From the NCBI GenBank assembly GCA_021646465.1, contig SOET01000023.1:1-64000 (forward strand): a DNA stretch of 64,000 bases, written 5' to 3'. The first letter of the stretch is position 1. Every line of letters begins with the position of its first letter. The notes under the pieces were generated by a model. That model was not told the DNA's origin. It searched no databases and saw only the letters and a list, made by a program, of their open reading frames with translations. Source of the stretch: Candidatus Kuenenia hertensis. Lineage in GTDB: Bacteria > Planctomycetota > Brocadiia > Brocadiales > Brocadiaceae. A program made the translations under genes and the position numbers. This document shows positions 40,369 through 55,287 of this stretch, one piece after another.

Positions 40369-42581
40369 AAAAGACATGTATTTTAACTGCCATAGTATTT
40401 ATTTGTTGCCTTGCCATTTGCAAAACGCTTGTTTTTCCCGGAGAAACGACGAAAGAACAAACGACAGCTTATGGAGAAAACATTAATTTCGATATTGTTT
40501 TTCCGAAACAAAACGATACAGAAACGGATGCAAGACTGGCACAGGCAGAAAGTATGTTTCATGAAGAGGCAAAATGGTTACAGGAAGAAGCGGAAGCAAA
40601 AGTCACCATTGCTACAAAACGTGATACCACAATAACGAAAGCTCCAGGTATCATATCAGTGATAACTGAGCCGGAAATTAAAAACATGGGATATCGTACT
40701 TTTGCTGAAATATTAAGAACAATACCGGGATTTGAAATCTTAAAGAGAGGCGCTTACGGCACAGTGATTCCTGCAATACGTGGTGTAGAAGGAGAAAACA
40801 TGGTTCGGGTAATGCTCAATGGACACTTTGTTAATAATCCTTATATAGGTGATGCATTTCAAAATTTTGACGATTTTCCCCTTGAGAATGTGGATAGAAT
40901 AGAAATTATCAGAGGACCAGGCTCTGCCTTATACGGAGAAAATGCATTTCTGGCAGTTATTAATATTATTACCAAAGATATTTCTGCTTTAGAAGGCATA
41001 CGGGTCAACAGCGGGTACGGAAGCTTTGATACGATGGAAGGAAATATCCTGTTTGGTGAAAAATACGGAGAAGTAAGCGTCACGGGAATGTTACACTACT
41101 CTGAAACAAAAGGCCTCGAAGAATCAATAAACAGCGATTTTGTTACCGCTATGGATAATGCATTTTCTTCATTCGGTTTCCCAAAGGCATCGGAAGCTCC
41201 GGGGAGCCCTGATGATTGGAGAAGAAAATATATCATGAATCTTAAAGCCAATTACAAAGATTTTTATTTTGAAGGTTTCTACTTAAACAAAAACAGGGGA
41301 GGTTATCTTGGCATCCAGGATGCGCTGACAAATGAAACCGATATTGAAAATAACTATGTCTTTACAGAAATAATGTATAAAAAGAAACTTGGAGAAAGGC
41401 TTGCCATAAGCCCAAGAATATATTACGACCAGTTTGATGATGACTATTATGTGGAATCGTTGCCAGAGGGGACAACATTGTCTTTTGACACAAATCAAGA
41501 TAACATATATGAAACTTTTTACACATACTCTGAAGGGTTAATTGGCAATGGACGATATAGCCAAAAGATTGCAGGAACTGAAATTCCCATAGATATTGAA
41601 TTGTTTACCGGAAATTTATTTACCATGGGCATGGAATTCAGGCTGATAAATCAAACAAATATCAGCTATTACTCAAATTTTCATCCGCTGACATATGAAC
41701 CATTATCCTCAATCCAGGACTTTTCTGATACGTATCCTTTCGCAAATGATGTTACAAGGAGAATCTGGTCTGCCTATGTTCAGGATGTATGGGATATTAC
41801 TGATAAAATAAATCTCACTACGGGATTCAGATTCGATGATTATAGCGATTTTGGCGGAGAGTTCAGCCCACGTATCGGGTTAACATGGGAAATTTTAGAA
41901 AACGCCTCGCTTAAGTTATTATATGGGAGGGCATTTCGTGCTCCAAACTTTGATGAAATGTATATTACGAACCAGCCCGCTCGTCATGGAAATGAAAGTT
42001 TAGAACCGGAAACAATTGATACCTATGAAATAGGCATCGACTACACTATTAACAGATATATAACGAGCAAAGTTAATTATTTTTACAATAACATCAAAGA
42101 TTTGATTGTCCTTCAGTTGAAAGACCCTGGACTCTGGCAGTTTGAAAATTTTAGAGATGCATATATTCACGGAATCGAATTTGAAAGCAGGATCAATTTT
42201 ACCAAAAACAATTACCTTTTTATGAATTATACCTTCCAGGACCCTAATGACGAGAACGGCAAAAATCTCCCTTTTGTCACAAAACATAAAGGAAACTTTG
42301 GGGTAAACATGCAGCCATGGAAATATATCAATACAAACCTGAGCACATTCTTCAGCGGGAAACGTTACCGGGAAGAAGGAGATTCAAGGGATGACTTGCC
42401 TTCCTACGCACTCCTCAACCTTTCTCTCATAGCAAAAGATTTTTGGGAAACAATGGAGATACAGGGAACAGTTAACAATTTGCTGGATAAAGATTACGAT
42501 GATCCCGGAAATGTATACGTTCCAGATGATCTGCCAAGACCGGGACGAACTTTTTTTATCGGGATGTCATATGCATTTTAA
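40365..42581 (+). CDS. TonB-dependent outer membrane receptor (second)
   Basis: A 738-residue receptor: signal peptide (LTAIVFICCLAICKTLVF), plug with TKAPGIISVITEPEIKNMGY, ILRTIPGFEILK, IRGVEGENMVRVMLNGHFVN and DRIEIIRGPGSALYGENAFL, then a barrel ending ISYAF-like (IGMSYAF). It overlaps the diguanylate cyclase stop by four bases (ATGA), so it is the last gene of the sensory operon. Substrate unknown. The shared pre-plug segment with the receptor at 32785 suggests a common partner or a common origin. Confidence 0.9.
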   Translation: MKKTCILTAIVFICCLAICKTLVFPGETTKEQTTAYGENINFDIVFPKQNDTETDARLAQAESMFHEEAKWLQEEAEAKVTIATKRDTTITKAPGIISVITEPEIKNMGYRTFAEILRTIPGFEILKRGAYGTVIPAIRGVEGENMVRVMLNGHFVNNPYIGDAFQNFDDFPLENVDRIEIIRGPGSALYGENAFLAVINIITKDISALEGIRVNSGYGSFDTMEGNILFGEKYGEVSVTGMLHYSETKGLEESINSDFVTAMDNAFSSFGFPKASEAPGSPDDWRRKYIMNLKANYKDFYFEGFYLNKNRGGYLGIQDALTNETDIENNYVFTEIMYKKKLGERLAISPRIYYDQFDDDYYVESLPEGTTLSFDTNQDNIYETFYTYSEGLIGNGRYSQKIAGTEIPIDIELFTGNLFTMGMEFRLINQTNISYYSNFHPLTYEPLSSIQDFSDTYPFANDVTRRIWSAYVQDVWDITDKINLTTGFRFDDYSDFGGEFSPRIGLTWEILENASLKLLYGRAFRAPNFDEMYITNQPARHGNESLEPETIDTYEIGIDYTINRYITSKVNYFYNNIKDLIVLQLKDPGLWQFENFRDAYIHGIEFESRINFTKNNYLFMNYTFQDPNDENGKNLPFVTKHKGNFGVNMQPWKYINTNLSTFFSGKRYREEGDSRDDLPSYALLNLSLIAKDFWETMEIQGTVNNLLDKDYDDPGNVYVPDDLPRPGRTFFIGMSYAF

Positions 42582-42602: not shown

Positions 42603-43139
42603 TTACCCTTTTGCCCTTTCACCCTGAAACCACATATCATAGAGGGGGAAAAAGATATACGCGCCGAATGTAAGGATAAATAAAATATTGGAAACGGTTA
42701 ACAAAATAACAAAATGATGTGACGTATAGCGAATAAGCCATGGCGCGCTGAGGTTCATGACAATCCCCGCCAGCGAGCCACTGTAAACGGTTATCTTCAA
42801 CCAGTCACGCAACTGTGTCAGCGCAAGCATCCTTGAAAGGATAAAAACAACAATAGGTATTGAGAATAGATGTGCATGGGTTACCCCTAAAAGCTCTCTG
42901 TACGATTTAGGAAAATAAATCCCTTCCTTTAAACTCTCAGCGTATTCCTCCTGCGTTTGATCAGGGTTAAACTCTTCCTCTTTATCACCACAATAATAAC
43001 GCACCGTTTTCTTTGGGGAAAAGCCCGTCTTGTCGTAAGCTACCCAAAAGCCAACCCCAACTGCAACAGTAATAATGGATAAGAAAAAGGTAAAAAACAT
43101 TTTATTACTAATGGGCAGAGACCACATGCCACGCGACAT
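42603..43139 (-). CDS. Integral membrane protein next to the FMN/ApbE gene
   Basis: About 178 residues from the ATG at 43139 (AAGGA 7 bases upstream). There are four hydrophobic helices: FFTFFLSIITVAVGVGFWVAY, LLGVTHAHLFSIPIVVFIL, ITVYSGSLAGIVMNLSAPWLI and FVILLTVSNILFILTFGAYIFF. His residues inside or near helices (THAHLF, TSHHF) could ligate heme or metal. The start overlaps the end of the ApbE fusion by about 30 bases, so the two are probably coupled. I do not recognise a named family; a membrane redox partner is an inference from context. Confidence 0.65.
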   Translation of the reverse strand: MSRGMWSLPISNKMFFTFFLSIITVAVGVGFWVAYDKTGFSPKKTVRYYCGDKEEEFNPDQTQEEYAESLKEGIYFPKSYRELLGVTHAHLFSIPIVVFILSRMLALTQLRDWLKITVYSGSLAGIVMNLSAPWLIRYTSHHFVILLTVSNILFILTFGAYIFFPLYDMWFQGERAKG

Positions 43140-44814
43140 CGATTTTTCCTTCATTTTTAACCTTTGTAAATTTTTCATCAAAACCCCGGCTTACATATAT
43201 AACAATCTTTCCGTCCTTCTCACACGCAATTAACGCCTCCGCACCTGGTACCTCCCGAACAAGATCGAACCCCCTCTCCGGGCCTAAAACGTATACACTT
43301 GTTGAAAGAGCATCAACATCCGTTCCGGATGGGGCAACGATTGTCACGGCAATCGTTTCTTTCACAGGTTTCCCCGACCGCGGATCGATTATATGAGAAT
43401 ATCGGACTCCGTCGATATCAAAAAATCGTTCATAATCGCCTGATGTGGCCGTGGCTTCATCCCTGAGTTCCAGATATCCCAGTATTTCACCCGTATCACG
43501 CGGGTGCTGCACCCCAACTTTCCACGTGTTTCTCCCCGCCGGAGTCCCCAGTACGTATATGTTTCCTCCCAAATTAATACATGCATTATCAACGCCGTAA
43601 TTCTTCATGACTTTCAGTGCCTTGTCCACGGCATACCCTTTTCCAATCGCGCCAGGATCTATTTGCGTCGACATATTCTTAAAAAAAACCGTACCCGCTT
43701 TTTTCTGATCTCCGTTTCTTTTTATCTCTATATTTTTATACGATACGGCAGGAAGAAGCCTGTTGATTGCCACTTCGGAAGGAATATGTCCCTTTTCATT
43801 GAAGAACCCCCATAATGCCACCACAGGGGAAACCGTAATATCAAATGCCCCGCCGCTTAACTCACTGAAGAAAAATGATTGTTCAAGAAACTCAAGGAAT
43901 TCTTCGGTGCATAATACAGGAGATTTTACGGCAACCTTGTTTACCCTTGAAAGTTCGCTGTCTTTTTTGTAATTGCTTAACATGGCATCCATTCGCTCCA
44001 TTTCATCCAATGCAGCGTCAATGGCCTCTCCCGCTTTTTTAACATCGTCTGAATACGTGGATATCTCGGCAAACGTACCCATGATCATCCTCGTTTGTTT
44101 CACAAGTTTTTTCTCAGAGACCTCTCTCTCCTTTTTTTCGCGTTTTTCATTACGGGAGGTAACATCTTCTCCCGTTATTTTTGTCGTACCAGCCGGCGCC
44201 AATGCATTCACATCCCTTTTCCCATTCAGATAATATTCATTTATCACTCCCAACACCTTCCTAACTCCGGCGCACATATACTGCACCGACATGGTAGCTC
44301 CGGTAATATTAATAATATCTTTATTGATCCTGATAGGGTTTTTCAGGGATTTACCGATAAACTGATAAAGAAAACGTTTCCTTGCAATCTCTCCGCCGCG
44401 GCTTTCACGATACACAAGTACGGCAATATCCTTTATCTTTCCGTTTGGCTTTACCGCAACGATAAAGGTAAACGGATGGAACTTTCCGATCTCCTCCGTT
44501 ATGATTGCGTATCCCTGAACTTTATTTTTTTTCATTCCAATGTGTACAGTGAAATGATTCTCAAAAAGACGCCTTTTTAATAATTGTTCCAGATTCTGTT
44601 TTTCTTCAGGAGTCATGATAATTTCATCCGTTATGATCCTATCACTCTCCGGGAAAACCTCTTTAATCGCTTCTTCTTCTGTAAGATATACCTGTAATTG
44701 AAAATTGTCCGCTGGTTCGGTTTCCGTTTCCTGAGAATATATTACTCCTGCTGAAAAAAGAAACATACTCAAAAACACGAAAAAGCGAAAACAGAAAATA
44801 ATCCTTTTATTCAT
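43108..44814 (-). CDS. FMN-binding domain fused to ApbE flavin transferase
   Basis: About 568 residues with a signal peptide (IIFCFRFFVFLSMFLFSAGV). The N-terminal part (about 85-190) is an FMN_bind domain with ITGATMS, the S/T-G-A-T site where FMN is linked covalently. The C-terminal part (about 235-560) is ApbE, which cleaves FAD and attaches FMN to such a Thr: MGTFAEISTYS, IDPGAIGKGYAVDKAL, NLGGNIYVLG, SHIIDPRSGKP and DVDALSTSVYVLG. Enzyme and substrate domain are thus on one chain, suggesting self-flavinylation in the periplasm and electron transfer outside the membrane. It is followed by a membrane protein and preceded by a lipoprotein and a multiheme cytochrome. The ATG at 44814 fits the signal peptide better than 44838. 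Confidence 0.9.
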   Translation of the reverse strand: MNKRIIFCFRFFVFLSMFLFSAGVIYSQETETEPADNFQLQVYLTEEEAIKEVFPESDRIITDEIIMTPEEKQNLEQLLKRRLFENHFTVHIGMKKNKVQGYAIITEEIGKFHPFTFIVAVKPNGKIKDIAVLVYRESRGGEIARKRFLYQFIGKSLKNPIRINKDIINITGATMSVQYMCAGVRKVLGVINEYYLNGKRDVNALAPAGTTKITGEDVTSRNEKREKKEREVSEKKLVKQTRMIMGTFAEISTYSDDVKKAGEAIDAALDEMERMDAMLSNYKKDSELSRVNKVAVKSPVLCTEEFLEFLEQSFFFSELSGGAFDITVSPVVALWGFFNEKGHIPSEVAINRLLPAVSYKNIEIKRNGDQKKAGTVFFKNMSTQIDPGAIGKGYAVDKALKVMKNYGVDNACINLGGNIYVLGTPAGRNTWKVGVQHPRDTGEILGYLELRDEATATSGDYERFFDIDGVRYSHIIDPRSGKPVKETIAVTIVAPSGTDVDALSTSVYVLGPERGFDLVREVPGAEALIACEKDGKIVIYVSRGFDEKFTKVKNEGKIDVAWHVVSAH

Positions 44815-44857
44815 GATATCACATTCTATCTCATTCATAATTTATTACTGACAACTA

Positions 44858-45319
44858 CTATTCTTGTGCATTAAGAATCTGCTCCACCTTTTCAAGGAAC
44901 ATTTGTTCGGGCATTCCATTTGATGGAACACGTTCCCACCGATAAGCACGGCTGCCGCCGGGAGCCTTCTCTTCAACATAAGCCTCTACAGACAGATAGG
45001 TCCTGCCTTGTTCAGGCTCAACCGTAATGAACAAACGATAACGTTCCTGCCATCGACCCTCCAAAAGCAACCCCATATCTCTTGTAGTAGAATATCCCTT
45101 CACCCAGTCAGTTACCACAAATCCCTTTTCCACATCTCTTTCTTTCACCCTTACTCCGATAAGGGCCTGATCAATCGCCTCCCAAACAGAAACCGCATCA
45201 CCGTTAACATACCGTGAAATACCGGATACATTCCTTCGCCCCCACCATCCTGTAGCACAGCCGGTAAGCTCTGTAATTAAAAATCCTGCAAGCAGTAATA
45301 TGACAATACTATATTTCAT
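44858..45319 (-). CDS. Small lipoprotein
   Basis: A 153-residue lipoprotein: hydrophobic signal (YSIVILLLAGFLIT) and a lipobox ELTGC with the acylated C21. The mature part reads VWEAIDQALIGVRVKERDVEKGF...TDWVKGYSTT...RWQERYRLFITVEP, like BamC/NlpB-type or DUF-type periplasmic lipoproteins, but I cannot name the family. It is on the same strand as and 19-43 bases upstream of the FMN/ApbE fusion. Confidence 0.75.
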   Translation of the reverse strand: MKYSIVILLLAGFLITELTGCATGWWGRRNVSGISRYVNGDAVSVWEAIDQALIGVRVKERDVEKGFVVTDWVKGYSTTRDMGLLLEGRWQERYRLFITVEPEQGRTYLSVEAYVEEKAPGGSRAYRWERVPSNGMPEQMFLEKVEQILNAQE

Positions 45320-45518
45320 TAAAAAATAGACGTTGCCGTGTAGGGGCTGAAAATCGTTCGGCTGAACTCACGACGAAGTCTTCAGCCCTTACGTTACGAT
45401 ATGAATTATTGTAATAACTATTGATTTCTTCTGAAAATATCCTTTTTTCACCATACGAAAAGTAAAGATACTAACAGATATATTTCTTTTTTACAAATAC
45501 TTTGTATCTTTCCTCTTT

Positions 45519-47807
45519 TTACGGTTCCAGACTTATTGACACTTTGTGTGATTCATAATCATTTTCCTCCAGAGAGATTACATATCCGTTTTGCGCTGCA
45601 AACTCAAGAGTCCCTTTCGGATAAAAACGGTAAATAAGCCTCGCCGTTATGGTTATTGTACTGTTGTCCAGTGTTTGAAATTCATAATGTGTAGTATCTG
45701 TCTCATTCGCCTTAATACGTGTATCATACAATTCTTCAACGGCAAAAGAATACAATATGTCATTGAAAAACGGGTTCAAATCTTCATTATCTTCGATCAT
45801 TCTGTTATGTTTTATGAATATTTTACCTGGTTTGCCCGCATAATCCCCTTCTCCCTCATAATATCCATCCGGAAAATTCCCTCCCGGTGTATCAATAACC
45901 TGATCATTGATTTGACTAAGAGAATTTCCTGATTGCGTTACTTCCACAAATAAAACGACGTTGCGCTGTGTGACGCCGGACGGATAGGCATGTCCCGTGT
46001 GGGAATTTTTTACACTCACATCAAAGCTGACAATGCCATCAGCAACACTGGCATTCGAGATTGCAAGGTCTACCGCCCAATCAAGATATCGTTTCTTCTC
46101 ACCAACCGGAAGGTTTTGGTTGGTACCTTCAAAATGGTGGGGATATATGGTTCTGGGATCGCGGCTCGTCCCCTTCTGCTTTTTACTTTCACTCAACATA
46201 TAATATGAATCGGTAACTTCGGTATAATCTGCAATAGATTCACCCGTTGCAGGGTCTGGCGGCGGATCTTTCATATGGCAGTCCTGACACTGCAGCACCT
46301 GCCCTGCGTAATTATCCATCGGATAGTCTTCCTCCAACCCGCTATAACCGCTAAATCTCCATTCACGGTATGTGTCTTCGCTCCATAATATCCTTTCAAT
46401 GGTTTCTCCACCAGTAGGCTGATCATTTTCGTCTACCGGCTGCAAATATAATTTCCTTGCATCCTGATGGCAAGGGGTGCATATTTCACTCTTTTTAAAC
46501 TGTGAAACGTATGACGCCTGCATACTTTTATAGGTAACATCGTCAAAAGGCCCAAACATCACCTTCCCCTCTTTTGCGATATTTAAAGCAGGGTCGGGAC
46601 GTAAAAGATCCACTTTATAATTCACACCGGGTTCCGTCCAATACTCTTCCTCCTCATGCACATTTTGCATCTTATGACAAAAATCGCAATGAACGCCTTG
46701 TTTGTCTATTGATGACAAATTATCAACATCAGTCAAAACGCCCGCTCTCATATCCCATTTTGGCGTTTTACCGTCGCTCTGTACACCGGATGCAAACGAA
46801 GGTGAATGACAATCAGCGCAATCATGAATGTTTCCAGCGTCTCCCAAAATTTTATACCTGCCCGTGGAATCCTCAAATATCTTCCCCTTGTCACCTACAA
46901 ATTCAGGATTAGGATCGTCAAAAATAGAAACATCTCCAAAATTTGCCCTGTCTCCTGTAACATACCATGCAGTATACAAAAGAAAAATCAGTTGATTTAT
47001 CGAATTTACCGCTGCGCTTGCCATTTCGCTGTCTTTCCAGTCGTTATAAATATTTTCATGGCACTTTTTGCAGTTTTTGCTCGATAGGTATTCATAATCC
47101 GTGTGATCTTCCTCCTGAACTGCTGAAAGGGCAATGCTCACAAAATCATCTTTTCCCAAAGTCATTTCCTCTCCCGCATTTTTATACCCCTCTTTACCAG
47201 CAGTTACAATAACTTCCTCCCCTGAAATCCCTTCATATTCTATTGAAAAATTTCCGCTTTCATCAGAAAGGACGCATTGCGCTTCCTCTTCAGGATAATA
47301 GCTCTCATCATCATCGTTAATATCCGCTACTCCCTGTATCCTTACCCGTGCATCCTTTATATCACCCGAAGCCTTATCATAAACGGTTCCTACGATTTCC
47401 CACATTTCAAGAGTACCTACAACAATACGGTCTTTTTTCCTGATTTTATAGTCATCCCATTCAAGTTTTATCTTAATTGTTATCTTATCATCCACATTGT
47501 AATCACCAAGTGAGGCTGAACCGGTAAACGCGCCTTGACCAGTGTTCCACGTTAATTCAACTTCCTTTTTAGACTTTTTACCCTTTGCTTTTAAAGTAAA
47601 AACAGATTTTGTAACATCACGATAGTCATACTTGTTTTGCGATATCTTTACATAAAGGGTATCAGCTGCAAGAAAGGCCCTGTCATCCGTTGAATAGTCT
47701 GCATTTCTGCTCAATGTATACGAAACACCGGCAAAGACACCTGAACACAGAAAAAATGTTAAAAGTAAACAGAAAGCAGTTATCTTTATCGTAGTATTGT
47801 ATCTCAT
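45519..47807 (-). CDS. Five-heme c-type cytochrome with CarboxypepD_reg domain
   Basis: A 762-residue exported protein. Signal peptide about 1-26. A beta-rich N-terminal half contains a carboxypeptidase regulatory-like Ig domain (WEIVGTVYDKASGDIKDARVRI, about 130-230). Five CXXCH heme motifs follow: CKKCH, CADCH, CDFCH, CTPCH and CQDCH, with extra His residues as likely second axial ligands. The C-terminal third is again beta-rich (FDVSVKNSHTGHAYPSG). This pattern resembles cytochrome c554/octaheme-like electron carriers in anammox and metal-reducing bacteria, joined to a surface-binding domain. It probably carries electrons at or near the outer envelope and may be a partner of the nearby FMN/ApbE protein. 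Confidence 0.88.
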   Translation of the reverse strand: MRYNTTIKITAFCLLLTFFLCSGVFAGVSYTLSRNADYSTDDRAFLAADTLYVKISQNKYDYRDVTKSVFTLKAKGKKSKKEVELTWNTGQGAFTGSASLGDYNVDDKITIKIKLEWDDYKIRKKDRIVVGTLEMWEIVGTVYDKASGDIKDARVRIQGVADINDDDESYYPEEEAQCVLSDESGNFSIEYEGISGEEVIVTAGKEGYKNAGEEMTLGKDDFVSIALSAVQEEDHTDYEYLSSKNCKKCHENIYNDWKDSEMASAAVNSINQLIFLLYTAWYVTGDRANFGDVSIFDDPNPEFVGDKGKIFEDSTGRYKILGDAGNIHDCADCHSPSFASGVQSDGKTPKWDMRAGVLTDVDNLSSIDKQGVHCDFCHKMQNVHEEEEYWTEPGVNYKVDLLRPDPALNIAKEGKVMFGPFDDVTYKSMQASYVSQFKKSEICTPCHQDARKLYLQPVDENDQPTGGETIERILWSEDTYREWRFSGYSGLEEDYPMDNYAGQVLQCQDCHMKDPPPDPATGESIADYTEVTDSYYMLSESKKQKGTSRDPRTIYPHHFEGTNQNLPVGEKKRYLDWAVDLAISNASVADGIVSFDVSVKNSHTGHAYPSGVTQRNVVLFVEVTQSGNSLSQINDQVIDTPGGNFPDGYYEGEGDYAGKPGKIFIKHNRMIEDNEDLNPFFNDILYSFAVEELYDTRIKANETDTTHYEFQTLDNSTITITARLIYRFYPKGTLEFAAQNGYVISLEENDYESHKVSISLEP

Positions 47808-47809
47808 AA

Positions 47810-48472
47810 TTAAATCAACCTCCTTGAATGCATTAATTCTTCATGCCCCACAAAAGCATAATGTTTTATTTCTCTTATTTTTAGTTTATTTAATACAACT
47901 TCTATATCATTTCTTATCTTTGCCATGTTGCTTATTACTGTTGGGCAAAATTGACTGCCGGTATGGAGTTCAATTTCCCCGAAACAGTCTTCTGTACTTT
48001 TTGCCTTTCTATATGGTCTGTCAGCAGTTATAGCGTCAATGGTATCTGCCAGAGAAATTATTCTCGACGCAAGGGGAATACTTTCCCCTTTAAGACCTTC
48101 CGGATAACCGAACCCGTCAAAACGTTCATGATGATGAAGAACGATACATGATATTTCCCTGAACATTGGCAATCTTTTAAGAATATTGTGCCCTATCCGC
48201 GGATGCGCCTGTATTTGCTCTTTTTCTTCGAACGTCAGACTACCCGTTTTGTTTAACACCTTATCCGGGATGCCTATCTTACCAATGTCATGCAAATGTG
48301 CCGCGATATGTATTATTTCTTTTTCTTTCTCCGGCACTGACATTGCGGTTGCCATCATAACCGACAATTCAGCAACACGCCATGAATGAATTGAAGTGTA
48401 TGGGTCTCTTGCATTTAAAATATTTACGACAATATCAATTACTTCGTGAGTATTTATCTTCTGTTTTGTCAC
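47810..48472 (-). CDS. HD-GYP phosphodiesterase
   Basis: A 220-residue protein made almost only of an HD-GYP domain. H...HDIGKIGIPDKVLNKTG (about 54-72), QAHPRIGHNIL, HHHERFDGFGYPEGLKG (with the GYP triad) and SLADTIDAITADRPYRKA are all there, so it should hydrolyse c-di-GMP. No receiver or sensor domain is attached. It follows the DUF2325 gene and ends two bases before the cytochrome gene on the same strand. Confidence 0.9.
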   Translation of the reverse strand: MTKQKINTHEVIDIVVNILNARDPYTSIHSWRVAELSVMMATAMSVPEKEKEIIHIAAHLHDIGKIGIPDKVLNKTGSLTFEEKEQIQAHPRIGHNILKRLPMFREISCIVLHHHERFDGFGYPEGLKGESIPLASRIISLADTIDAITADRPYRKAKSTEDCFGEIELHTGSQFCPTVISNMAKIRNDIEVVLNKLKIREIKHYAFVGHEELMHSRRLI

Positions 48473-48588: not shown

Positions 48589-48906
48589 TCAGTTAAGAGG
48601 CAACCGTAAACCAGACTTCTTAAATTGACTCTGACTATCCTTCATCTTTTGATAAATGGACGACCAAGACCTTTTGGCATAAACAACAGGTATCTCCTTC
48701 GAATTTGCATACTCTTTAATTTTGTGGGAAAGGTTATGGTTCACGTAATCGCACAACACGATAATAAAATCCATTGTTTCGGGAATGCCGTTGCGTATCT
48801 TCTGAGTACTTCTCCCTGACATATGCTTCACCTCATTTACTCCTATTTTATCAAGCTCTCTCGGAATACTCCCCAAATGATCACCACCTACTATTAATAC
48901 TGACAT
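48589..48906 (-). CDS. DUF2325 protein
   Basis: A 105-residue protein. MSVLIVGGDHLGSIPREL and FIIVLCDYVNHNLSHKIKEYA with VYAKRSWSSI near the end match DUF2325, a small Rossmann-like domain with a conserved G-G-D/R and N-H. Function unknown; members occur beside iron or metal regulated genes. A Fur-like box (48927-48945) sits about 20 bases upstream of its start, which would link expression to iron. Confidence 0.8.
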   Translation of the reverse strand: MSVLIVGGDHLGSIPRELDKIGVNEVKHMSGRSTQKIRNGIPETMDFIIVLCDYVNHNLSHKIKEYANSKEIPVVYAKRSWSSIYQKMKDSQSQFKKSGLRLPLN

Positions 48907-48926: not shown

Positions 48927-48945
48927 GTTAATGAGACTCATTCTC
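48927..48945. promoter_or_regulatory. Fur-like operator upstream of the DUF2325 gene
   Basis: GTTAATGAGACTCATTCTC is close to the 19-bp Fur consensus GATAATGATAATCATTATC, with the two halves in inverted order around AGACT. It lies just before the start of the minus-strand gene, in promoter position. No experiment supports it; related DtxR-type sites could look similar. Confidence 0.55.
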
Positions 48946-49054
48946 AGTATCATAATAAAAAAAATCGTTTTGTCAATGGAAATTTCAACACCTTCTCTCT
49001 CCGCCACTGCACGTCTCTGTGCAGGCTCATGTTGGTATTGTCGGATAAAAAACC

Positions 49055-49544: not shown

Positions 49545-50630
49545 TTATACATTTTTTACCTTCTTTTTTTTCTTTTCTTCGTACATTTGCATGTCTGCTT
49601 TCGCAATTACTTCATCTATTGAACATGGATTTTGATAATCATAGCATGCGAAACCCACACTCACTGACAACTTATAGGGATTTTTGTTCTGTTCATTATA
49701 CCTGTTTATGTTGTCTTTTAACCTCCTGACAATACCTTCTGCGTTTTGACGATTACTATCTACCGAAAAAACAGCATATTCATCACCTCCCATCCGCGCA
49801 ATAATATCGGATTCACGGAATGTTTTTTTCAAAATAATTGCTGTTTCCTTTAATACGCGGTCTCCTTCGTTATGCCCGTAGTTGTCATTTATTTTTTTAA
49901 AATCGTTCAAATCAATTATAAACAAAAATAGTTTTTCCTTCGTCCTGTCAGCAATTTTCATTTGCTGCTCCAGAAGGATAAAAAAACCTCTTCTGTTATA
50001 AATATTTGTAAGTTCATCGGTGATTGACATTCTGTATAACTCTTGAGTCTTTTCAGTCAACTCAGCTTTTGTTTCTTCCAATTCCTTATTTAAATTTCTT
50101 AGTTCTAAATTCTTTTGAATTGCGTTTTCATAGGTCGATATCAAAAGGTCTATTATTTGTACACGTTCGGAAGTAATAAAGTGTTTTTTACCGGCAAAAA
50201 ATATTTCGATGCCAAATTGAGCATTCATATTTCTTCGGATTGCCTGATTGGCCAAAACATAATTTATCCTGGATACGAGAAAACTCTCTTTATAAGGTTT
50301 CACGATAAAACTATCTGCTCCGCATGCAAGCCCTTCTACAATATCTTTCGGATCAGAGAGCGAAGAACACAAAATAAACGGAATATCTTTTAAATTATCA
50401 TCATCCCTGATCTTTTTGCATAATTCATACCCGCTCATTCCGGGCATAACGATATCACTGATAACCATCGACGGCTTCCGTGTTTCCATGAGGGCAAGCG
50501 CCTCAGAGCCACTCTCCGCAAGAGACACAATATAGTGGTTTTTTTCTACAATGTATTTCAATTGCGCTGCCTGTGTAGGACTGTCTTCGACAATTAATAT
50601 TTCAATATCGCTGTTATCTTCTTTACCCAT
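49545..50630 (-). CDS. REC-GGDEF diguanylate cyclase (WspR-like), distal copy
   Basis: A 361-residue protein. The receiver has ILIVEDSPTQAAQLKYIV and MVISDIVMPGMSGYELC with the phosphoacceptor Asp, then SLSDPKD and K in IVKPYK. A coiled coil (NAIQKNLELRNLNKELEETK) leads to GGDEF: DELTNIYNRRGFF, FIIDLNDFKKINDNYGHNEGD, RESD as I-site, then MGGDEYAVF. It should make c-di-GMP after phosphorylation by CheA. It overlaps the next gene by eight bases and is paralogous to it. Last gene of the chemosensory operon. Confidence 0.92.
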   Translation of the reverse strand: MGKEDNSDIEILIVEDSPTQAAQLKYIVEKNHYIVSLAESGSEALALMETRKPSMVISDIVMPGMSGYELCKKIRDDDNLKDIPFILCSSLSDPKDIVEGLACGADSFIVKPYKESFLVSRINYVLANQAIRRNMNAQFGIEIFFAGKKHFITSERVQIIDLLISTYENAIQKNLELRNLNKELEETKAELTEKTQELYRMSITDELTNIYNRRGFFILLEQQMKIADRTKEKLFLFIIDLNDFKKINDNYGHNEGDRVLKETAIILKKTFRESDIIARMGGDEYAVFSVDSNRQNAEGIVRRLKDNINRYNEQNKNPYKLSVSVGFACYDYQNPCSIDEVIAKADMQMYEEKKKKKVKNV

Positions 50631-51693
50631 TTCTCATCCGCTTTTTTTCGTACATTATTTTGTCAGCCTTGTCCAGGAGTTCGTCGATGGTGCTGTTTTC
50701 ACCCACTTTGCAAAAAAACTTACCTATACTTGCCATAAGCTGAAAAGGATAACCAGTCCGGGAGTTAAAGTCATCGATGTTATCCTGGAACCGGCGTTCA
50801 AGATCATCCGCATCATTTTCTTCAGACTCCACTGAGAACACAATAAATTCGTCACCACCTATGCGTGCAACAACATCAGACTCCCGAAACATTTTCTTAA
50901 TAATAGCAGCTAATTCCTTCAGCATCACATCGCCTTCTTTGTGGCCATAGGTATCATTGATATATTTTAATCCATCGACGTCAATCATAATAAGCAATAC
51001 GGGTTGTTTCTTTCGTTTTGCAATTTTCAATTGCTGTTCTGCTATCAGAAAAAAACCGCGGCGGTTACGCAACCCTGTGAGTTCGTCAAATAAAGTAATT
51101 TCGTGGAGTTCAGCAGCCTGTTTTGCAAGCAATGCTTTTGCCTCTACCAATTTCCTGTTTGTCTCTTCAAGTTCGGTATTTTTCTGAATAACACTCTCGT
51201 ACACTGAAAAAAGCAGATCAATTATTTGCAATTTTTCAGCCGTGAGAAAATACTTTTTGCCGGACAAAAACAATTCTATACCAAATTGTGAAACAGATTG
51301 CTTTCGTAATGCCTCATTTGCAAGAATATAATCGATACGGGAGATGAAGAATTCTTCCTGAAATGGTTTTTGTATAAAATGGCAGGCGCCGGATTCTAAT
51401 CCCTTAAAGATATCCTCCGCGCTGGAAAGAGAAGTCACGAGAACTACCGGGATATTTTTTGATTTTAATTTTTTGCATAATTCATAACCATCCATCTCCG
51501 GCATGACAACGTCACTAATAACCAAATTTGGCTGCACGGTATCTATCATATCTATCGCTTGTCTGCCGTCTCGTGCAATAAAAACCTTATAGCGTTGTTT
51601 TTCAAGAACATACTTTATACGCTCAGCCTGCGTCGGGCTGTCTTCGGCAATAAGTATTTTGATCTCTTTATGGATGACGGTTTTCATATTCAT
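50623..51693 (-). CDS. REC-GGDEF diguanylate cyclase (WspR-like), proximal copy
   Basis: A 356-residue protein with the same layout as the gene at 49545: receiver (ILIAEDSPTQAERIKYVL, LVISDVVMPEMDG), a linker with FGIELFLSGKKYFLTAEKLQ shared by both copies, a coiled coil, then GGDEF with DELTGLRNRRGFF, MIDVDGLKYINDTYGHKEGD, RESD and IGGDEFIVF. Active site and inhibitory I-site are both intact. It overlaps cheB by four bases. Two tandem output cyclases on one chemosensory operon is unusual; they may differ in activation or localisation. Confidence 0.93.
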   Translation of the reverse strand: MNMKTVIHKEIKILIAEDSPTQAERIKYVLEKQRYKVFIARDGRQAIDMIDTVQPNLVISDVVMPEMDGYELCKKLKSKNIPVVLVTSLSSAEDIFKGLESGACHFIQKPFQEEFFISRIDYILANEALRKQSVSQFGIELFLSGKKYFLTAEKLQIIDLLFSVYESVIQKNTELEETNRKLVEAKALLAKQAAELHEITLFDELTGLRNRRGFFLIAEQQLKIAKRKKQPVLLIMIDVDGLKYINDTYGHKEGDVMLKELAAIIKKMFRESDVVARIGGDEFIVFSVESEENDADDLERRFQDNIDDFNSRTGYPFQLMASIGKFFCKVGENSTIDELLDKADKIMYEKKRMRNG

Positions 51694-52760
51694 CCCGTTA
51701 ATTCAACTGCACCAGTTTTTAACGTTAATTTTTCAAGAACAGCAGGAATATCATAAATAGAAAGTATGTGCGTTGCGGCGCCGATTCTTTTTGCCTCCGC
51801 GGGCATGCCATAAATGATGGAGGTACTTTTATCCTGAGCAATAGTTATCGCACCGCGTTCTTTCATTAACTTCAATTCCTGTGCGCCATCCTGTCCCATT
51901 CCTGTAAGAAGAATACCTACCGCCCTATCGCCAACATTTTCAGTTACCGAACGAAACAAAAATGAGACCGATGGACGTAAACCATTTTCCGGCATGCTGT
52001 GCCCAAGAAATATTTTTAATTTATCATTTACCCCCATATGATAACCATCCGGGGCAAAGTAAACATGCCCCGGTAAAACTGCTTCATCATTGATTGCCAC
52101 ATGAATTTTAAATGGCGTTGTTTTCATAAGCCACTCTGCCATCCCATTTATAAAACCGGGGGAAATGTGCTGAACAATCAAAACAGGAACAGGTATTTCC
52201 TTATCAAGGTTTTTAAGCAATATCTGAATCGTCTGAGGTCCTCCTGTAGATGCGCCAATTGCAACAAGTTTAATTTTTCCCGCACACTCTATATCATTTT
52301 CTGTTGCCTCGTTTTTAACAGATTTCTTTTGTGATGCATTGTCTGTTCCCGGCCTTACAAATTCAGAATTGGATAGCGATTTTACCATGTTTATCAAATG
52401 CCGCGAAGCATGTTCATGGTTATGATCTTCTATGCTTCCCGGCTTTTCAATGAATGCCATAGCTCCGGCATCCAGCGCCACAAATGTTTTCTCTTTTTCC
52501 TTTGGATTCCAAAATGCACTTACCATAATAACAGGCAGAGGATTTGTTTTCATTATCGTACGGGTAGCCTCTATGCCGTCCATCTCAGGCATTTGAATGT
52601 CCATCACAACAATATCAGGTTTTTTGCATCGTAAAAATTCTACCGCTTCCCTTCCATTGTTTAATTTACCAATAACGCATATATTCGGATCTCTCTGAAG
52701 AATATGCACTAAAAGTTCCTGCACCACGGGCGAATCATCTACCACTATTACATTTATCAT
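51690..52760 (-). CDS. cheB: CheB receptor methylesterase (WspF-like)
   Basis: A 356-residue protein with an N-terminal receiver (D54 in VVMDIQMPEMDG) and a C-terminal methylesterase. The catalytic triad is S171 in GASTGGPQ, H198 in VQHISPG, and the Asp in LLTGMGQDGAQ. It removes methyl groups that CheR puts on receptor glutamates and so resets the receptor. In Wsp-type systems this protein (WspF) lowers cyclase output. It directly precedes the two diguanylate cyclase genes, with a four-base overlap. Confidence 0.95.
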   Translation of the reverse strand: MINVIVVDDSPVVQELLVHILQRDPNICVIGKLNNGREAVEFLRCKKPDIVVMDIQMPEMDGIEATRTIMKTNPLPVIMVSAFWNPKEKEKTFVALDAGAMAFIEKPGSIEDHNHEHASRHLINMVKSLSNSEFVRPGTDNASQKKSVKNEATENDIECAGKIKLVAIGASTGGPQTIQILLKNLDKEIPVPVLIVQHISPGFINGMAEWLMKTTPFKIHVAINDEAVLPGHVYFAPDGYHMGVNDKLKIFLGHSMPENGLRPSVSFLFRSVTENVGDRAVGILLTGMGQDGAQELKLMKERGAITIAQDKSTSIIYGMPAEAKRIGAATHILSIYDIPAVLEKLTLKTGAVELTG

Positions 52761-52807
52761 ATATTGTACCTGTATTCAATTAGACTGCCTTCGGCAGCGA
52801 CTTACGA

Positions 52808-52842
52808 CTGCTTGTTCCCAAACAGAGTTTGGGAACAAGCAG
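52808..52842. repeat. Palindrome with 16-bp arms between cheA and cheB
   Basis: Arms CTGCTTGTTCCCAAAC and GTTTGGGAACAAGCAG are fully complementary around AGA. A related sequence is at 12621-12644. It lies in the 139-base gap between the cheA stop and the cheB start, and no clear T-run follows. It may affect the ratio of the upstream and downstream parts of the operon. Confidence 0.75.
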
Positions 52843-52899
52843 TTGAATTTGGGAATGAGCTATAATACATTCAGGACTGCAAATGCTCCGCCCCTACAA

Positions 52900-55287
52900 C
52901 TATATAAATCGTTTTACTGTTTCCAGGAGGTCGCTCTGGTCGAAGTTACTCTTAACAATGTAAGCACTTGCACCCACGTCTATTCCTCTTTCACAATCTT
53001 CACGGGAACCCAAAGATGTTACCAGAATCACCGGAATCTCAGATAATTTTTTGTTTTCCCGAATCTTCGCAGTAAGAGCAAATCCGTTCATCCGCGGCAT
53101 ATCAACATCTGACACCACCAAATCAAATTCTTCCATTTTCAACTTTGATAGGCCGTCAATTCCGTCAACAGCAGTTTTTACATTGTAACCACCTGATTCA
53201 AGAATATTTTTCAATAACATCCTGGAAGTAATTGAATCTTCAACAATAAGTATCATTTTTCTTTTCCCCACGGTCGTTTCTCTTTGAATATCTTTTGTAA
53301 CGGAAGAAGATGGTGTTCTAATTGCTGATTGAATTAAATCATACACATTTATTACAGGAATAATTTCTCCGGAACCAAGAATTGTTGCACCTGCAATATT
53401 TCGGACACGCACTAATTGTTTACCAAGATTTTTGACTAATACTTCCTGTTCATCAAGCACCTCATCCACAGAAAAAGCGATGCACTTATTTGAAGCACTG
53501 ATAACTACCGTATGGAGATAATCGGAATTTGCGATTTCTTTTGATATGTTTTTATTTACACTGGATATACACAATACATCACTCAATTTTATTAACGGAA
53601 CAGATTCTCCATCAACAAATACGGTTTCTTTTTCTTCAATCTCTTTTATCTCATTCGTATTAACACGTATCACCTGTTCCACGCTGATCGTTGGGATTGC
53701 GAATTTCTGATCGGCGACTCTTACAATTATCCCCCGAAATGTAGCAAGTGTTAAAGGAAGAATTATTCTGAATGTCGTACCCGCATTTATACCAGATTCT
53801 ATATTCACCTTGCCGCCAAGTTTTTCAGCTTTTTCACGGACTATGGCAAGCCCAAGCCCTCTTCCGGATATATTTGTAATAATCGGACTTGTAGATATAT
53901 CTGATTGAAATATTAATGACAATGCTTCTTTGTCATCCATGTTATCAATATCCTCTTTTTTTGTATAACCGGATTTTAGCGCCGCTTTTTTTACTTTCTC
54001 AACATTAATGCCCCTTCCATCATCTGAGATAACTATTTCCACCTGATTGCTATTCGTCTGATGTATTGATAGAGAAATTGTTCCCTGCGGCTTTTTGTTT
54101 TTCTGTACCCGCACTTCAGTGTTTTCGATTCCATGATCGATACAATTTCTTACCATATGCATTAACGGATCTTTTATTTCTTCCAAAATACGTTTGTCAA
54201 TTTCAACCTCACCACCTTGAATTAACAAATTTACATTTTTGCCCTGGTTTCGGGAAATATCACGCACGGCCTTCGGGAAACTTTCCAATACCGAAGAAAA
54301 CGGCATCATAATGATTTTTTTGACATCCTCAAGAAATTCGTCCACCATTCCGGAAATCATTCGATGGTCACGTTTCGTGCAGCCCGCTAAATCATTTATT
54401 TCCTTTTCCAGGATTTTTATATAGTTATTATTCCATTCCAGGAATTCTATCAGCGAATCAATATCTGCACTACTACGTTTTATTTTATCTTTCACAGAAT
54501 CAATTTCATTTTGTAATGAAAATGTCTTTCGCACCGATGAGTAGGCTTTCGACCATTTATTGTCCCAATCATTAAAGATTGCTGATATGCGCGATAGTTC
54601 ATGAGCACGCAGCAGCGAAACCTGTTTTAAAGAAAGCATTTCCTCTGCTTTAAAAAAAAGTGTATCTAATTTTGTCGCGGCAACCCGTAACACCTTTACA
54701 TGGGTTGTTTCCCTTTCGGCACTATCATCTTTTTGTCTGACATTATTTGTATCGTTTCGTTTATCGTCATTAATGTAAGCCCCAGCCGTATCAGTAATTT
54801 TGTTCTCAGTTGATGCCTCTTTAGCGTTCGTTGACAAACTTTCTTCAATGAACTTTTGACTGCATCTTTCAGTAAGGTTTTCATCAGTACATTCACCCGA
54901 TGCAAGTTCTTCTATCCGGCGTACAAGTTCAAAAATTTCTTCAATTTTCTGCGGGGAAACAAGTATTCTGCCAATGCAATCAACGGCATTATGCAGAATA
55001 TCATATTTTCCCTCAGACAGTTTAAACCCTTTATGTTTTACAGAGTCAAACACCGTTTCAAGCGCATGGCATATTTTTTCGATATCGAGAAGGTTTACCG
55101 CCCTTGCTGCACCTTTCAAACTATGGGCTTCACGGAATATCTTTTCAATAATTTGGTTCTGTTCGTGGATGGGGGGATTTTCCTCCATTTTCAGCAGATC
55201 AGCAGACATTTCCTTTACATGTTCTTCCGCCTCTATTTTAAACGTGGCCAGCAGTCGTTTTTGAAATTCAATTTCTTTTTCGTTCAT
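52900..55287 (-). CDS. cheA: Hybrid CheA histidine kinase with C-terminal receiver (WspE-like)
   Basis: A 795-residue protein. The Hpt domain has H55 in FREAHSLKGAARAVN. A middle dimerisation region follows, then a HATPase domain with HMVRNCIDHGIE, SDDGRGINVEKVKKAAL and GRGLGLAIVREKAEKLGG. A CheW-like domain (about 560-690) binds receptors. A receiver at the end has MILIVEDSITSR and D727 in DLVVSDVDMPRMNG. Kinase-receiver hybrids of this type are found in Wsp and other non-flagellar systems. It should phosphorylate CheB and the two REC-GGDEF proteins. It lies nine bases after the HD-GYP gene. Confidence 0.95.
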   Translation of the reverse strand: MNEKEIEFQKRLLATFKIEAEEHVKEMSADLLKMEENPPIHEQNQIIEKIFREAHSLKGAARAVNLLDIEKICHALETVFDSVKHKGFKLSEGKYDILHNAVDCIGRILVSPQKIEEIFELVRRIEELASGECTDENLTERCSQKFIEESLSTNAKEASTENKITDTAGAYINDDKRNDTNNVRQKDDSAERETTHVKVLRVAATKLDTLFFKAEEMLSLKQVSLLRAHELSRISAIFNDWDNKWSKAYSSVRKTFSLQNEIDSVKDKIKRSSADIDSLIEFLEWNNNYIKILEKEINDLAGCTKRDHRMISGMVDEFLEDVKKIIMMPFSSVLESFPKAVRDISRNQGKNVNLLIQGGEVEIDKRILEEIKDPLMHMVRNCIDHGIENTEVRVQKNKKPQGTISLSIHQTNSNQVEIVISDDGRGINVEKVKKAALKSGYTKKEDIDNMDDKEALSLIFQSDISTSPIITNISGRGLGLAIVREKAEKLGGKVNIESGINAGTTFRIILPLTLATFRGIIVRVADQKFAIPTISVEQVIRVNTNEIKEIEEKETVFVDGESVPLIKLSDVLCISSVNKNISKEIANSDYLHTVVISASNKCIAFSVDEVLDEQEVLVKNLGKQLVRVRNIAGATILGSGEIIPVINVYDLIQSAIRTPSSSVTKDIQRETTVGKRKMILIVEDSITSRMLLKNILESGGYNVKTAVDGIDGLSKLKMEEFDLVVSDVDMPRMNGFALTAKIRENKKLSEIPVILVTSLGSREDCERGIDVGASAYIVKSNFDQSDLLETVKRFI

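Follow-up and report, generated by a model that had tools for sequence, protein, structure and literature searches.

A putative iron-controlled flavin electron-transfer module, built around an FMN_bind-ApbE fusion and an HxH membrane protein, in Candidatus Kuenenia hertensis

We describe a gene group in a 64,000-nucleotide stretch of the Candidatus Kuenenia hertensis genome (contig SOET01000023.1, positions 1 to 64,000; termed the window), whose minus strand encodes a lipoprotein, a fusion of an FMN_bind domain with the flavin-attaching enzyme ApbE, a small membrane protein termed TM4 and a cytochrome with five CxxCH motifs. Our preferred reading, held with moderate confidence, is of an iron-controlled, flavin-based envelope electron-transfer module that reduces Fe(III) for ferrous uptake; its core is the series lipoprotein-fusion-TM4. 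Anammox bacteria require much haem iron, and to our knowledge their iron reduction and import are poorly known. The function of the module points to iron because an iron-type box precedes it, the same box precedes feoB elsewhere in the genome, feoB adjoins the module both within the order Brocadiales and in eight outgroup loci, and a VIT1 protein was met once. Fe(III) reduction for Fe(II) import appears the simplest role for an envelope flavoprotein encoded beside FeoB, and such a role has already been put forward for flavinylated systems that have VIT1 (PMC8238504).

In the proposed mechanism a Fur-type repressor would free the promoter when iron is scarce. The fusion would be exported, and its ApbE half would place flavin mononucleotide (FMN) on residue T182 of its own FMN_bind half or of another copy's. 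TM4 would take electrons from the membrane, most likely from quinol near an outer-face HxH motif, and hand them to the FMN, which would reduce ferric iron in the envelope; FeoB would then import Fe(II). The lipoprotein may anchor or position the flavoprotein, and the cytochrome and a DUF2325 protein would be companions in the regulon.

RESULTS

Gene group and promoter

An earlier note on this DNA, made from its letters, had proposed an envelope redox group of four genes, and an open reading frame (ORF) check found all four at the noted places on the minus strand. The group is longer than this (Table 1): a promoter and box are followed by genes for DUF2325 and HD-domain proteins, the cytochrome, the lipoprotein, the fusion and TM4, with successive gaps of 116, 2, 199, 19 and -74 nt, the HD gene thus ending 2 nt before the cytochrome gene. 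The promoter is the best, at 11/12, of 27 sigma70-like matches in the scanned region, a number that modestly exceeds that in shuffled sequence (18.8 +/- 4.4); it aligns across six DUF2325 loci and also stands before a porin gene of the same genome. A single transcript for the whole group is plausible, since the group has three terminator-like sites on the minus strand, all of them inside genes, and the total of such sites (8) is not clearly above shuffles (5.4 +/- 2.5). No RNA families were found between window positions 42000 and 50000. The named relatives of the locus are a Planctomycetota metagenome-assembled genome (77% protein identity) and one of Candidatus Brocadia (64%).

Table 1. Features of the gene group in the window, with related features elsewhere (own-genome contigs C58 and C82; other genomes)
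Feature	Coordinates	Strand	Evidence or remark
Sigma70-like promoter, TTGACA-N16-TATGAT	48949..48976	-	Consensus match 11/12
Candidate Fur-type 7-1-7 operator TGAGAATGAGTCTCA, near-perfect inverted repeat	48932..48946	-	4 exact genome copies
DUF2325 protein, 105 aa, first gene of the group	48589..48906	-	PF10087, 60.5 bits vs cut-off 33.6
HD-domain protein, lineage-specific neighbour	47810..48472	-	PF13487, E 5.1e-40
Secreted five-CxxCH cytochrome, 762 aa, optional member	45519..47807	-	Orthologue full-length in 10/39 genomes
Lipoprotein, 153 aa, core member, weakly NlpB/BamC-like	44858..45319	-	Lipobox; PF06804 below cut-off
FMN_bind-ApbE fusion, 576 aa, core member	43108..44838 (alternative start ATG 44814)	-	Pfam, AlphaFold/Foldseek
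FMN_bind domain, fusion residues 122-196	44251..44475	-	Pfam; acceptor codon T182 = 44293-44295
ApbE domain, fusion residues 253-536	43231..44082	-	Pfam; S466, H482, D509 intact
TM4, four-helix membrane protein, invariant HxH, core member	42603..43154	-	Longest ORF from TTG 43181
FUS2 series behind box	L237:2855-13258, contig C58	one strand	Iron uptake tied to anammox encapsulin
Second feoB and iron-dependent-repressor protein with FeoA domain	L238:5121-8451, contig C82		One-mismatch box upstream
TM4 relatives with CxxCH before HxH	L192, L193, L195, L196, L197, L198		ApbE gene near in 3/6

FMN_bind-ApbE fusion

The earlier note had seen flavin acceptor and modifying enzyme in one protein, and profile searches agree. 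The FMN_bind half exceeds its Pfam cut-off (PF04205, 30.6 vs 22 bits) and the ApbE half lies far over its own (PF02424, 282.1 vs 25.6 bits). The acceptor T182 is in place within KDIINITGATMSVQ, in a motif that reads D-I-I-N-I-T-G-A-T and so holds the [S/T]-G-A-T core as ITGAT. Placed by motif and alignment, the catalytic Ser/His/Asp triad is intact as S466, H482 and D509; its counterpart in Vibrio cholerae ApbE is S241, H257 and D285 (PMC12052999). Self-flavinylation is plausible because these enzyme residues are intact.

The acceptor pattern is widely kept. Of 47 Brocadiales proteins 38 have D-x3-[ILV]-[TS]-G-A-T, and the remaining nine are truncated, ApbE-only or lack that Asp. All 29 outgroup FMN_bind sequences keep the acceptor Thr, and 24 of them have Asp at T-8.

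An AlphaFold model of the fusion (mean predicted local distance difference test score, pLDDT, 81; predicted template modelling score, pTM, 0.60) matches solved ApbE/Ftp structures (Foldseek E 3.2e-29); its match to RnfG/NqrC is weak. The stretch between the halves, residues 207-232 in model numbering from ATG 44814, has pLDDT below 50, and such a linker would permit modification in cis without being proof of it.

Across 39 genomes, our own included, the fusion was matched in 34. By our reading of the match rows 30 of these hold the same type of fusion, one cut by a contig end, and the remainder the ApbE part only or a paralogue. In G012, a genome 99% complete, the searches found the ApbE half (locus L105) and no FMN_bind half, lipoprotein or TM4, which looks like a joint loss of these three.

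TM4 membrane protein

The TM4 ORF has 192 aa when read from TTG 43181, a start that gives the 74-nt overlap with the fusion gene; ATG 43154 or 43139 is the more likely start. The earlier description of a four-helix membrane protein with His residues held for the helices, of which an AlphaFold model (pLDDT 72) has four long and two short, and for its histidines was narrowed to a single motif: the only conserved His are those of HxH, H102 and H104 in the 192-aa ORF (92 and 94 in alignment A1). HxH is found in 63 of 63 aligned TM4 sequences, as gathered by a profile that itself contains HxH, and one Gly in 62. By the positive-inside rule we infer that HxH lies at the outer face. The idea that TM4 binds haem b through His pairs from two helices found no support, because the second cluster, SHHF, varies and HxH alone is invariant.

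By profile, TM4 matches none of the membrane classes known from flavinylation. In 30 members no match at E<=0.5 was found to the Pfam classes PepSY, MsrQ, NapH, DsbD or DUF4405; the Pfam matches that did appear are weak, to 11 unrelated families (best E 0.0019), and NCBIfam gave the same 30 no relevant family, with two weak unrelated matches. Against the PDB the model finds helical-bundle background only: the top VIA-align row, with Z 9.2, is a designed helical bundle and falls inside the background that this tool gives for helical models. A TM4 relative (L177) searched against plasmids gave no match.

A variant of TM4 is found outside the order. In 6 of 31 outgroup TM4 ORFs a CxxCH motif lies ahead of HxH, and in none of the six is there an FMN_bind match in the stretch, as if a haem had been put in the place of the flavin.

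Distribution and linkage

TM4 is present in 31 of the 39 genomes (G035 has a weak match only and G037 broken pieces), and in 25 of these 31 it adjoins the fusion on the same strand, with gaps of -71 to 340 nt between the aligned parts. The lipoprotein was likewise found in 31 of 39 and lies near the fusion on the same strand in 26 loci. Wider searches, centred on Planctomycetota, matched the TM4 profile to 77 of the 392 planctomycete genomes covered (31 of 36 inside the order and 46 of 356 outside it); 38 of the 46 outgroup genomes were taken into locus analysis. Of these 38 loci, 25 have FMN_bind no further than 2.5 kb from TM4 and 29 have it anywhere in the stretch; an ApbE is found in 29 and a porin-like protein in 25. 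Among the matches listed outside the order that cover both halves of the fusion, 13 of 17 come from TM4 genomes.

The earlier note had tied the envelope flavin group to iron, and here the linkage to feoB speaks for it together with the box described below. Eight of the 38 outgroup loci carry feoB, and tblastn gives the same eight. We estimate that about 0.1 of 38 loci (0.43 Mb in all) would have feoB by chance, since 331 of the 392 genomes carry the gene, mostly in single copy. As a control, nine stretches of our own genome (117 kb, picked around weak box matches and thus not random) gave one match to the FeoB profile, in the frame of another GTPase-like gene, and none to the other profiles. 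Within the order, locus L082 has FeoA, FeoB and FeoA/GGDEF genes directly upstream of the lipoprotein, an arrangement that sequence clustering shows for L129 as well. Upstream of the cytochrome, L086 has genes for a multicopper/multihaem protein and a rubrerythrin-VIT1 protein.

When six of the porin-like proteins were tested, two matched Porin_O_P, one of these under the cut-off. In two loci of family f4 (L118 and L200) a TM4 copy lies near a feoB of the type on contig C82 (Table 1).

Iron-type box

A Fur-like box had been claimed near the group. It stands at 48932-48946, just behind the best sigma70-like match. The form TGAGACT-G-AGTCTCA is a perfect 7-1-7 inverted repeat, the geometry of a Fur box. 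In the window by itself the box is no more frequent than chance predicts: with up to three mismatches there are three matches, compared with 2.0 by chance, and a 19-mer Escherichia coli-type Fur consensus does not stand out there, its best match of 15/19 being equalled in 2 of 20 shuffles. The standing of the box thus comes from genome-wide and comparative counts.

The box TGAGAATGAGTCTCA has four exact copies in the 4.17-Mb genome, where we estimate about 0.008 at equal base use, and a further two with one mismatch and two with two. Exact copies precede the window operon, the porin gene (by 12 bp) and the gene series of a second fusion, FUS2 (805 bp before FUS2). One of the one-mismatch boxes lies 41 bp before feoB, which is followed by a gene for a 137-aa protein and then one for an iron-dependent repressor; the other lies 20 bp before the gene of a secreted 478-aa protein. 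The two-mismatch boxes (contigs C24 and C42) are inside genes. The fourth exact copy, at C58:22747 (L236), has no clear target gene. On both counts two mismatches are too loose a limit genome-wide, and at up to three the weak matches are largely noise, since 94 are found for the box and 40 for the reversed pattern.

In the loci of the module the counts separate well. With up to two mismatches the Brocadiales loci (0.62 Mb) have 27 matches compared with 0 for the reversed pattern, and the 38 outgroup loci 24 compared with 1, where both strands are taken and a symmetric site may count twice. The symmetric form at the same limit is found in 13 of the 38 outgroup loci, and two control patterns in none. 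Membership of a Fur regulon is suggested by this finding of a 7-1-7 inverted repeat before iron genes, and two Fur-family genes of our own genome score over the cut-off.

In six aligned DUF2325 loci the box, or a sequence close to it, comes directly behind the -10 element; weaker forms precede DUF2325 in L099, L090 and L094, and the box is missing at DUF2325 in L079, L083, L097, L098, L123 and L128; upstream of the porin there is a match with 0-2 mismatches in L079, L083, L097, L123 and L128. DUF2325 itself is present in 15 of 43 clustered loci.

FUS2, a degenerate second fusion

FUS2 is a 548-aa paralogue of the fusion, 35% identical, encoded on contig C58. It retains the acceptor Thr and the His of the triad; Ser466 is replaced by Met and Asp509 by Ala, and the SNYKKDSE stretch is partly deleted. 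Since Ser466 and Asp509 are lost, FUS2 is probably incapable of modifying itself and would need an enzyme in trans. A Pfam search of the genome for ApbE gave two matches only, the fusion and FUS2. Downstream of FUS2, on one strand, are genes for a FeoA-FeoB fusion, a FeoA/GGDEF protein, cation efflux, a thioredoxin-like protein, an encapsulin and a multicopper/multihaem protein.

The box and FUS2 are separated by two short ORFs of membrane type, read by eye as some 25 and 47 aa long, between C58:83257 and 84062 (L203). In genome G020 (L112, contig C1) the degenerate fusion paralogue is split into two pieces.

DISCUSSION

Points against the preferred reading

Several results weigh against a ferric reductase module under iron control. 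The window operon itself has no iron transporter gene, feoB was not seen in the stretch of 30 of the 38 outgroup TM4 loci, and 25 of the 38 have no box match in the stretch. Linkage has exceptions: four of the 17 listed matches to both halves of the fusion outside the order (G101, G166, G338, G356) are in genomes without TM4, and in family f4 (L115, L116, L117, L118, L200) TM4 is unlinked from the fusion. For TM4, the HxH count is biased by its search profile, the alignment leaves out seven of 40 fetched loci that yielded no TM4 ORF, and with conserved His confined to one face a full path across the membrane is not evident. For the acceptor, the Asp of the fusion is at T-8, two residues further off than the T-6 of the published motif D-x-x-[S/T]-G-A-[S/T], and just 18 of the 29 outgroup FMN_bind sequences have the [S/T]-G-A-T core in exact form. 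In a fumarate reductase of Klebsiella pneumoniae replacement of the motif Asp by Ala gave minor effects only (PMC12052999, as for the motif).

The regulator, too, could be other than Fur. A PerR- or DtxR-type protein may read the box, as there are two Fur-family genes, an iron-dependent repressor gene lies near feoB, and a DUF2325 relative in Campylobacter jejuni is described as PerR-regulated (PMC9426514).

Other explanations

If PerR were the regulator, the box could govern a defence against oxidative or nitrosative stress that includes DUF2325, encapsulin and the flavin module, which would scavenge oxidants or nitric oxide with membrane electrons. The operon is headed by DUF2325, whose C. 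jejuni relative had the largest expression rise at the higher light dose (PMC9426514); the FUS2 series holds thioredoxin-like, encapsulin and multicopper/multihaem proteins, and DUF2325 and thioredoxin have been named as possible cargo of the anammox encapsulin (PMC6934571). This explanation, the best of the alternatives, is nevertheless unlikely in our estimate, as the one-mismatch box stands directly before the feoB that accompanies an iron-dependent repressor, and feoB adjoins the module in outgroup genomes.

A second possibility is that the fusion serves mainly as the ApbE of other flavoproteins, for example FUS2, and that its FMN_bind half merely guides or stores flavin. The probable need of FUS2 for an enzyme in trans fits this, as does the lack of any ApbE match in the genome beyond these two. 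We regard it as improbable: in outgroups FMN_bind stands beside TM4 even when no ApbE is joined to it (L161 and L166, and also L173 and L177, which have an ApbE gene of its own close by), so that TM4 seems to be partnered with the FMN_bind half.

Respiratory electron export through cytochrome and porin to extracellular or mineral acceptors, for which a multihaem cytochrome in the operon, a porin behind an exact box in our genome and the porin-like proteins of 25 outgroup loci might speak, is very doubtful, since the cytochrome is not conserved with the module and the iron-type box and feoB linkage fit assimilation better; nothing we found points to the outside acceptors of the earlier note in particular.

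Extension of the ferric reductase reading

A broader form of the preferred reading, ferric reduction for ferrous uptake, can be put forward tentatively, with rather less confidence than the reading itself. TM4 may be an undescribed class of membrane electron-transfer protein defined by an outer-face HxH, which in Planctomycetota would work with self-flavinylating fusions and a porin as a ferric reductase controlled by Fur. A c-type haem in the loop beside HxH would replace the flavin partner in some lineages, and in anammox bacteria the same regulon would connect the reductase with FeoB and with the encapsulin compartment.

Comparison with known systems

Flavinylation systems with membrane proteins of NapH-, MsrQ-, PepSY-like, DsbD and NQR/RNF-like types are described in PMC8238504 and share with the present group the combination of ApbE, FMN_bind and a membrane protein; some are under Fur control and have an iron transporter, VIT1, and 'FeoB' is absent from the main text of that paper. 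They differ from our group, in which ApbE and FMN_bind are one polypeptide, feoB and porin are linked and TM4 has no Pfam match to a class. The DUF4405/FezC cytochromes (PMC11334425) are likewise small membrane proteins near apbE in an iron context; their description gives them haem b and six helices, with four His at the centre, whereas TM4 has four long helices, HxH as its only conserved His and no Pfam match to DUF4405.

The FMN_bind half aligns with RnfG/NqrC (TIGR01947 E 1.4e-5; Foldseek rows 40-49). It differs from RnfG in score (25.3 bits vs a TIGR01947 cut-off of 102), in its fusion to ApbE and in its displaced acceptor Asp, and no Rnf/Nqr genes were seen among the scanned neighbours of the fusion. 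The ApbE half superposes on Treponema Ftp, Listeria FmnB and E. coli ApbE (Foldseek TMt 0.87-0.90, 24-32% identity), which unlike the fusion were solved as separate proteins. The fumarate reductase of trypanosomatids (PMC12052999) shares the principle of an ApbE fused to the protein that it flavinylates; as described there it is eukaryotic and glycosomal, with ApbE N-terminal and another acceptor enzyme.

No description of bacterial FMN_bind-ApbE fusions with the TM4 family was found in the literature searched, which did not cover supplements and most subscription journals, and the terms fused, fusion, planctomycet and brocadi are absent from the main texts of PMC8238504 and PMC11334425. ApbE/FMN_bind systems and, in trypanosomatids, a fusion of ApbE to its target are already known, and TM4 is the part most likely to be new.

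For anammox bacteria the result is a candidate regulon in which one box would unite a flavin reductase, two feoB loci, a porin and the encapsulin series. Research on flavinylation gains a fusion with its modifying enzyme built in, which many planctomycetes share, as well as an acceptor motif whose Asp is displaced, pseudo-ApbE copies that occur in nature, and a membrane family that is nameless in the libraries searched.

Lipoprotein, cytochrome and other neighbours

The lipoprotein of the earlier note is borne out by a lipobox ending in TGC, whose G20 and C21 do not vary across an alignment of 27 sequences. A fold search gave a sequence match to BamC only, at E 0.43.

The cytochrome has exactly five CxxCH motifs, at residues 246, 330, 374, 443 and 507, as had been counted from the sequence. 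As a fixed part of the electron route it did not hold up: in addition to the full-length orthologues in Table 1, two genomes have one cut by a contig end, and it adjoins the lipoprotein in 6 of these 12. It was rejected as a core member, since most of the 39 genomes lack it or have it at another place. In L130 and L060 the cytochrome is near the box and DUF2325, at a site that has no fusion.

A TonB receptor, which the earlier note had taken as part of an iron context, is encoded on the opposite strand, convergent to the group. It was seen again in L075/L003, which are one contig, and near a fragment of a fusion paralogue in L124; it was not seen in the 18-kb L076. The receptor was rejected as a partner, because its presence beside the group is not constant over the fetched loci. 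On the other side, upstream of the group, the minus strand at window positions 49545-55287 holds a run of response-regulator/GGDEF, CheB-like and CheA-like genes, named by eye.

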